64,000 bases of DNA from positions 8,060,001-8,124,000 of the forward strand of contig JAGUCH010000003.1 of assembly GCA_019096065.1 (NCBI GenBank). The letters are read 5' to 3'. The stretch is from Paracyclopina nana (taxonomy: Eukaryota > Arthropoda > Copepoda > Cyclopoida > Cyclopettidae). Both the position numbers and the translations under genes were made by a program. The notes beneath the pieces are model-generated. The model was not told where the DNA came from. It did not search any database and was given only the letters and a program-made list of their open reading frames with translations. Shown here piece by piece: positions 1 to 3,000 of this stretch. How positions within the stretch are numbered: position 1 is the stretch's first letter; each line of letters begins with the position of its first letter.

Positions 1-3000
1 CGGATTTGCTCCATCTGTCTTCAGGAATAGCAGGCCGACTTGAGGACTTATTATTGTTTGCGTAAGAGCCTCCGAGGCTGCTGAGGACATGGCCACCGCT
101 ACTGGGTCCCCAAGTTTTGCCTTTAACTCCATCAGCGGGCACTAGAAGAAAGGAAAACTCATGTAGACAAAAAAAAGAGCCCGTACTGAAAGAAAACTTA
201 AAATGTCAGCTACTACTACTACGAGAAGAAGTTTTGCATGCAGCTATCTTGTTTTAGGCGAAAAAGCTTCATCAGATTAAGACGGACAATTTGCAATTGG
301 AAAAGTTAAGCAGCTTATTCAGCACATGCAAAAGCAAATTTGCCAATGAAGATGGCAGCCTTCTCTTCGCTGGATGTACCCAGGGTGAGCCTGAAAAACT
401 TTGAGCAAGATCAACTTATGCTCTTGAGAAGAGAAATTTATTGAATGTCGAGAAAGAAGTGCTCTCGTTTTCGAATTGTTCGCAAGAGCTGAAAAGTAAA
501 GTGAAGCGCCAACTTTAACACTTTGGAGATGCGAAACTTTGTAAAATTCGACCTAAGCCAAAGATTGATGGCAAAGAAGGAGAAACCAAAACTCACGTGC
601 AATGGCCCTCAGTCGAGTTAATGAAGGAGAACTCGGTTGGATTAGTCCATTAGCATCCGCCGGTTCGGGTTGAACGGTGATGTTATGGCGGAAATCTGTT
701 AGTTGAATTGTGTTATTGGGGTTATTTACTCAAGTCATGCACATTATAGGGTTACGAACGCCACCTGACCTTATACCTATTTCTTAGTAACCGGATTATT
801 TTTTCTCAAAAAAGCCAATTCCCTCAGCCGGAAGTGAATCTTTTTTACCCATTTGTTTACGAAAGGAGCGATCCAAAATGCCTAGGTCTGCTCTTGAAGG
901 TGTCAAGCTAATAGGATGACGAAAATCTAAAGGGAGGAAATATTTTAGTTGAATAAATCTTTTCGCAACTAATGGTTCAAAGAATGTCTCAATTAAAGAT
1001 TTTCTAGCTTGGCAATTATCCCATTTTCGGAGCTTCGTATTTGAGGTACGAAAATAAAAAAGTGCTAATTGAAATTTGACCACTGGACTGGATTATTCAT
1101 ACCTAAGGGCGCGCTAATCATCGATGAAGGCGGTTGGCTAGCAAGATCTTTGTTTTTAAGCAACTTGAGCCTCGACTTTTTAAAGTTTCCTTTGCGTTTT
1201 TTAGGCGTGGGAACTCCAGGTCCTTGTTGCTGCAAAATCATCACATTGAGTTCACGTTGCAGGAGGTCGATTTCGCGTTCTGCGAGCTCAGCTTCACGCT
1301 GCTTTAGCCTTTCTTCTGCAATTCTTTGCTCGCGTTGCTTATCGTCCAAGACAGCCTCTTTGCTCTTCAATTCCTGAAACGCAATCAAGATGCACAAGCT
1401 CGTTAAATTAGAAACAACCATTTATCAGCAGGAAGAAGAAAAGATCTCACAAGCACTGGAAAAAAAACTTTTCAAAGAAAGCTATTTCTTTTGTCCTAAT
1501 TTCGGTGAAGCTATCTTATAATAAAGTAAGCTACTAAGAAATGGGCATTTGCCAACATTTTCAAGTGACATTTCAAAATTGCGGGCTACTATTTACAGCA
1601 ATTTCTCATCATTGGAAAAGATCTCGAAGGAACTGGAAAAAACCAAAGCAACTTTTCGAAAGAAAGCTATCTGCCAATATCAGTGAAGCAAGACAACTCA
1701 CAGAATAGATAACTGCAAGGAAATAGTCATCGCCAACATTTTCACACTTAAAACTATCTTTATGTTACTAATTAGGTATTAAGCTGAGTTTGTGCAATAG
1801 TCCGCTACTTACTTACGTCATGTGTAAACGCTTATAAACATAAAATCGCTAGCCACCAGAATTTGCGTGAGCAATAAATTATTGGTTATTACCTGCTCGC
1901 GAAATCGGATTGCAGAGAGCATCTCGTCAATTTCGACTTTCCAATCATCTTGCATTGAATAGAAATTATCTCCAGTCATTTCTTGGAATTTGGATCTGGC
2001 AATGTCATCCAACGTTTTCAAGATGTATTTAAACGAGGGCCTCTCATGGGTGTCGTATGACCAGCATGCTAAAAAAGGCCATAAGTTAAAAAACTCGATC
2101 CCAGAATTGCAAAAACATGTCTGATTTATGGCTTGCCCATGAACTGAATTATTCAATGTGACAAGTATCGAGCTCGAATATCTATAGAAAAGCCTTCTTC
2201 GCATTGAAAGCCAGCAAAAAAGGCCTTATGCAAAAAGGTGATCTCAGCAGCAAAGTGATAAGCTATTTTTGGCAGTTGCATCATCTTATATGGGTAAATA
2301 CATCCTTTATGCCGAGATTACAGAGACTGCAATCAACGCAATGAATGGTAAGAATTCGTACCAAAGAAGAATGCTTTCTTACCTTCCATGAGATCCTTCC
2401 ATTGCTGAGGACAAGTGGTGGGTATTGGCAGAGTTAATTTATTGACTGCCACCCCATAAGCTATTGCCAAATCGTCAATGCCTTTATAAGGGGTCTGACC
2501 CGTGAGCAATTCCCAGAGAACCACGCCGTAGCTCCAAACATCACTGGCCTTGGAAAAGGTCGAGTTTTTTATCACTTCAGGAGCCATCCAGGCATAGGTC
2601 CCCGCTGCAGACATTCTGGTCGTGTTTGCCGACTCGCGAGCCAGCCCAAAATCGGTTATTTTCAGCGTCTTCAGTTGCAGGTCGTCGTCTTTCTCCACCG
2701 TTTGCAATATCAAAACTAGCAAGTTGGAAGCCATTAGTAAATCATTTTGACACATAGTATGTCTCGCCCAGACGAAGCCTTTCGCTGGAAAGCCTATTAA
2801 ATCCCTAACAGCTAAAGCTGAATAAATGTAACCCTAGAACCGGCTACTTTTACTTGCCTACATTTCGGTAGGCTTTCAGCATAATGGCTTTTTAAAAGCT
2901 TACCATTAGCGGACTTGAGATCTCTGTGAACCAGAGAGATGGGAGCTCCGTGGTGCAAATAGTTCATCCCCCGGGCACATTGGATGGCCCAGTCGACCAA

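Follow-up and report, generated by a model that had tools for sequence, protein, structure and literature searches.

A divergent tandem copy of the CRIB-completing exon in the MLK/slipper gene of the copepod Paracyclopina nana, probably an alternative exon

Introduction

The stretch of DNA analysed here (the window; 64,000 nucleotides, C3:8060001-8124000, in a genome of 92 Mb in 10 contigs) begins within a minus-strand MLK/slipper gene, which runs across the window start into the adjoining segment L001 (C3:8050002-8060000). Two neighbouring segments of this gene, 6a and 6b, open with the same residues, and either could supply the second half of the CRIB motif of the encoded kinase. The locus thus raises the question of whether 6a is an exon in use and, if it is, what the choice between the two copies would do to the protein.

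Results

Gene identity and gene model

We modelled the gene as 11 exons plus 6a, with junctions picked by hand (Table 1); the form carrying 6b encodes SH3 and kinase domains in a protein of 1181 aa. The SH3 domain lies at the N-terminus (Pfam SH3_1, E 2.4e-13, residues 84-134), and the nearest solved kinases in the PDB are MAP3K9 (MLK1; E 3.2e-115) and MLK4 (E 9.1e-108), with MAP3K12 (DLK) ranking behind them (E 4.4e-64). After the kinase domain, exon 5 looks by eye like a charged coiled coil. The CRIB core has the consensus ISxPxxFxH, which ISAPLDFRH matches with either exon 6a or exon 6b. The Pfam PBD model gives a sub-threshold match to the 6b form (E 0.22) and none to the 6a form, and in a sequence search of solved CRIB structures neither form matches at E up to 10.

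Searching the genome with the protein recovered one MLK among the best 100 of 218 candidates, which were those scored. The next match lies at C1:17.37 Mb (53% identity over query residues 142-261) and, on our reading of its ORFs, would be a DLK/wallenda-like gene. A six-frame search of the 18 kb around it for a CRIB-like motif found none, and the idea of a further, CRIB-bearing MLK paralogue was accordingly rejected for the candidates scored; the two genes both encode MLK-group kinases, but it is the MLK that bears the CRIB. The gene resembles MLK1-4 and Drosophila Slipper in its SH3 domain, MLK-type kinase domain, CRIB core and, in 6b, a downstream PXSP, and differs from them in that the exon encoding the second CRIB half is present twice, one copy being divergent.

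Table 1. Features of the MLK/slipper gene within the window (a slash marks a splice junction).
Feature	Position	Strand	Remarks
Exon 1, coding part	3367..3847	-	Coding from 3847 (presumed start codon); N-terminal region, SH3 domain
Exon 2	2904..3308	-	Kinase domain, first half; PDB best matches MAP3K9, MLK4
Exon 3	2383..2715	-	Kinase domain
Exon 4	1893..2068	-	Kinase domain end
Exon 5	1103..1373	-	Presumed leucine zipper, basic linker with PTPKKRKG, ISAPL (CRIB first half)
Exon 6a	849..926	-	78 nt, 26 aa; putative alternative CRIB second half; no PXSP, no LRAI
Exon 6a, shorter version	861..926	-	In-phase donor TTC/GTAAAC, weaker (score 3.6 vs 7.6)
Intron between 6a and 6b	696..848	-	153 nt
Exon 6b	597..695	-	99 nt, 33 aa; canonical CRIB second half with PSSP, LRAI
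Exon 7	1..141	-	Acceptor at 141; extends past the window into L001

Exon 5 ends with ISAPL plus a G, followed by the donor GTATGA, so that the ISxP half of the CRIB lies on this exon, as the preliminary description of the locus had it. Exon 6a is bounded by the acceptor ATATTTCCTCCCTTTAG/ATTTTC and the donor ATGG/GTAAAA, and exon 6b by the acceptor CAATTCAACTAACAG/ATTTCC and the donor GCAC/GTGAGT. The two are adjacent internal exons of phase 1-1 with GT-AG introns, and the end of exon 5 is also in phase 1; its G completes the split D codon of DFRH at the start of both. The positions, shared phase and common DFRH start proposed for the pair can be read directly from the sequence; the description of 6b as the canonical MLK exon, with LRAI, and of 6a as a divergent copy is likewise supported. 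Both lengths are multiples of three, again as proposed, and all four inclusion patterns are open (6b only, 1181 aa; 6a only, 1174 aa; both, 1207 aa; neither, 1148 aa). The reading frame of 6a is open for 98 codons (minus strand, 1092-799), reaching deep into both flanking introns.

Genomic surroundings

Just downstream of the MLK gene, a 146-bp tandem satellite with 96-97% matches occupies L001:3471-5759, where a run of about 11 copies gives way to about 5 inverted ones; short AAAATGGCCC/ATTTTGGGCC repeats of similar kind flank it at 3288-3329 and 5901-5942. Elsewhere in the window, all on the plus strand, are a DEAD-box helicase gene with glycine-rich ends (8559-10690; its first part matches Pfam DEAD with E 1.2e-34), exons of the amiloride-sensitive sodium channel family (13781-15690; Pfam ASC, two ORFs), a SEA domain ORF followed by one that combines a long stretch rich in Thr and Glu with LDL-receptor class A repeats (38355-41068), and a match to the PACS-1 cytosolic sorting protein (61156-61908; Pfam E 5.6e-33). 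Rfam gave no match in the window or on segment L022. The TTAGG telomere-type repeat, which is associated with arthropods, has 5,073 + 4,205 overlapping exact matches in the genome.

Exons 6a and 6b are tandem homologues

Over residues 1-14, aligned without gaps, 6a and 6b agree at eight positions (D, F, R, H, I, P, A, D), with a BLOSUM62 score of 43. As a background, 211,603 bases of this genome supplied 7,459 sites that follow AG and contain no stop; these score -14.3 on average (SD 7.6) and 19 at most. A local alignment of the two also scores 43, with a maximum of 36 among 7,859 GT-AG candidates. The region from exon 5 to exon 7 offers 24 GT-AG candidates in matching phase; among those listed, 6b and its variants come top, 6a and its variants score 43 and the next scores 30. 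Exons 6a and 6b are therefore tandem homologues, as had been suggested, and over the first 14 residues coincidence is excluded. That the likeness is a chance resemblance of intron sequence has the shortness of 6a in its favour and nothing further; with a best comparable score of 19 in the background, we rejected it as practically negligible.

Convincing similarity between the two stops at residue 14, and their flanking introns cannot be aligned (local score, upstream p 0.14 and downstream p 0.85), which makes a recent duplication look unlikely. Six of the eight codons of the identical residues differ, always at the third base only, which bears out in detail the wobble differences reported earlier; such differences do not alone demonstrate selection. 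DNA and protein searches for other copies of 6a returned 6a alone, and are to be read as insensitive, since one of them also missed 6b.

Splice signals and codon use of exon 6a

The splice sites of 6a were scored with matrices trained on the ten other introns of the MLK gene, 6a being excluded. Its donor scores 7.6, equalled or bettered by 2 of 189 intronic decoys, and its acceptor 5.2, equalled or bettered by 27 of 229; the combined score of 12.8 falls inside the range of the gene's eight other internal exons (7.4-17.0). Of the stop-free pseudo-exons in matching phase, none of the 74 in the gene's other introns reaches this score, 1 of the 45 in antisense does, and so do 16 of 4,314 elsewhere in the window on either strand, some of which are possibly real exons. 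On the same matrices 6b has a combined score of just -1.3; its donor, GTGAGT, matches the general donor consensus. An unsupervised splice model built on 292 kb rated 6a poorly (136/189 donor and 109/229 acceptor decoys equalled it or did better); having recovered 0 of the 10 MLK introns, the model was discarded.

The codon composition of 6a is intron-like. Its codon score of -4.05 compares with 9.9+/-4.9 for exon windows (0.09% of 1,156 equally low) and -8.9+/-5.2 for intron windows (17% of 1,235 equally high), and with reverse training it scores -7.4, as low as 1.2% of 1,122 exon windows and as high as 20% of intron windows. Two further codon models place it below every exon window (0/1,121 and 0/1,155 as low), with 17% and 30% of intron windows reaching its score. 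On synonymous choice alone 6a scores -7.7, under the intron mean of -5.8, a test that is weak here because the canonical 6b scores low too (-3.8). Differences between the copies amount to 10/28 at codon positions one and two and 9/14 at the third (Fisher p 0.11), and neutral drift of 6a is not rejected in this single genome (2dLL 0.38 between a model with 6a neutral and a free one).

Mutual exclusivity

Adjacency, homology and a shared phase are the published preconditions for mutual exclusivity, and the authors expect it of most exons that combine them; of 16,180 exons of the fly X chromosome not annotated as mutually exclusive, 90 (0.56%) satisfied the published criteria, which include limits on length and similarity (extracts from PMC3228551). 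We applied criteria of the WebScipio type (by default, length within 20 aa and similarity >=15% of the self score) with our own alignment settings rather than the WebScipio code. Exons 6a and 6b measure 26 and 33 aa, with a similarity of 30/168 = 17.9% when the split D codon is counted; without that codon, the version of 6a ending at 861 has 15.4% and the one ending at 849 falls under the 15% threshold. A similar scan of the eight other internal exons gave no match, but with seven of them having no candidate at all and one having nine, it is little informative as a control.

The preliminary description suggested a search, including 848-696, for complementary sequences that would enforce exclusion; none was found beyond what shuffled sequences give. 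Docking/selector pairing around 6a and 6b was rejected: three intron pairs show no excess duplex energy (p 0.87, 0.62 and 0.84; 300 shuffles each), and the longest complementary run is 10 nt in each pair, a length that 121, 187 and 178 of 200 shuffles also attain. Folding of the whole region is less stable than that of 60 shuffles (z +2.5), with z of +1.8 for the 6a-6b intron and -0.9 for intron 5. Neither a too-short intron nor loss of frame would enforce exclusion, the spacer being 153 nt and double inclusion in frame. An enforcing device is common but not required for mutually exclusive exons: competing RNA structures are not found in every known exon cluster (extract from PMC3923563). Short or protein-assisted splicing control could also escape tests of pairing and folding.

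As a mutually exclusive pair, 6a and 6b are at most candidates. Like the exons of Dscam, Mhc and 14-3-3 zeta (PMC3923563, in extract) and U2AF1 exons 3/Ab (PMC5224494, in extract), they are adjacent, homologous and in the same phase, with intact GT-AG signals. They differ from these systems in being alike over the first 14 residues only, in that no competing RNA structure was found for them, and in sitting in a GTPase-binding motif and phosphosite.

Discussion

What exon 6a is likely to be

We favour the reading that 6a arose long ago as a tandem copy of 6b, within the single MLK/slipper gene recovered, and has been kept as an alternative exon (probability about 0.6), because the homology is beyond chance, the phases match, the exons are adjacent and the splice signals are good. 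The exon duplication in this CRIB-bearing MAP3K is real and old-looking, and 6a is probably an alternative exon. It would, rather improbably in our judgement, be a decaying relic instead, a tandem copy never or no longer spliced that drifts in the intron between exon 5 and 6b. Its intron-like codon use, the neutrality that is not rejected, the confinement of the likeness to 14 residues and the unalignable flanking introns are what such a relic would show; set against them are 26 open codons with phase preserved, splice sites that beat all 74 comparable pseudo-exons of the other introns, and eight residues that stayed identical despite changes in six of their codons.

Double inclusion of 6a and 6b is a serious rival, if a somewhat doubtful one. 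Here 6a would be a cassette exon joined with 6b and not exclusive of it, which would alter the CRIB and insert 26 residues ahead of PXSP; 6a is used in this account as in the one that we favour, and the two overlap to that extent, differing in the mode of splicing. The stronger acceptor of 6a and its place ahead of 6b speak for it, as do the in-frame double inclusion and the lack of any exclusion-enforcing mechanism among those sought, across a spacer of 153 nt. The published expectation that exons of this kind are mostly mutually exclusive (PMC3228551, in extract) weighs against it, and a repeated half-motif would seem redundant. Read-through past the 6a donor would create an alternative 3' end, with the frame stopping at 799 and the MLK truncated after the CRIB; although the frame is open over 1092-799, the donor at 849 is good and 848-696 holds no AATAAA or ATTAAA, and we regard this as very improbable.

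Exon choice and the PXSP site

The preliminary description had predicted that exon choice would yield kinases with different Rac/Cdc42 contacts. Altered contacts may be one part of the consequence; the prediction overlooked that 6b carries the sole PXSP site. Its PSSP, the only P-x-S-P of the whole 1181-aa protein, lies at residue 576 in the 6b form, shifts to 602 if both exons are included, and is missing if 6a is used alone. Exon 6a has neither PXSP nor LRAI, and just T-P at 564; after ISAPLDFRH, both exons keep I and a hydrophobic residue.

In Slipper, the corresponding serine, S512, lies in a PXSP just downstream of the CRIB that is conserved among MLKs, is phosphorylated and responds to temperature stress; it is reported to be required in the heat-shock response while mattering little in development. 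The PXSP of MLK3 is a target of JNK, whose phosphorylation of it acts as a positive feedback, and the physiological conditions that employ this feedback are called unclear (all from extracts of PMC3407086).

If our preferred reading of 6a as an alternative exon holds, exon 5 would give ISAPL and either copy would complete the CRIB core, as ISAPLDFRHxI(S/T)(L/V). The PSSP site would be carried by every transcript that includes 6b, with or without 6a before it, whereas 6a-only transcripts would keep a plausible GTPase-binding core and lose PXSP, the motif's TVQ end and LRAI, and the exon pair could in this way tune the MLK between feedback-sensitive and feedback-blind forms. The most economical guess is that choosing 6a would bring a splice-controlled loss of MAPK feedback, whether or not GTPase affinity is altered. 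More tentatively, and with the odds against it, the 6a form might still be opened by Rac/Cdc42 while lacking the PXSP, so that stress feedback and the heat-stress response would be gated by splicing and the 6b form would be the stress-amplifying one.

The preliminary description knew of no mutually exclusive CRIB exon in the MLK family, and we can agree within the literature covered: among the open-access matches listed, no title or abstract opening describes a duplicated or mutually exclusive MLK/slipper CRIB exon, nor did those matches yield any description of a PXSP consequence of such a choice. In main text, slpr is absent from PMC3228551, PMC3303723 and PMC3923563, and slipper and CG2272 from the first two of these. 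The absence of such an MLK exon in print is accordingly provisional.

If true, this arrangement would mean that GTPase input is uncoupled from MAPK feedback through exon choice in an MLK. The exon swap could divide the developmental from the stress roles of one kinase by splicing, and not by phosphorylation alone, and the MLK isoforms of this copepod would make the conditions under which MLK3-type feedback is employed testable.
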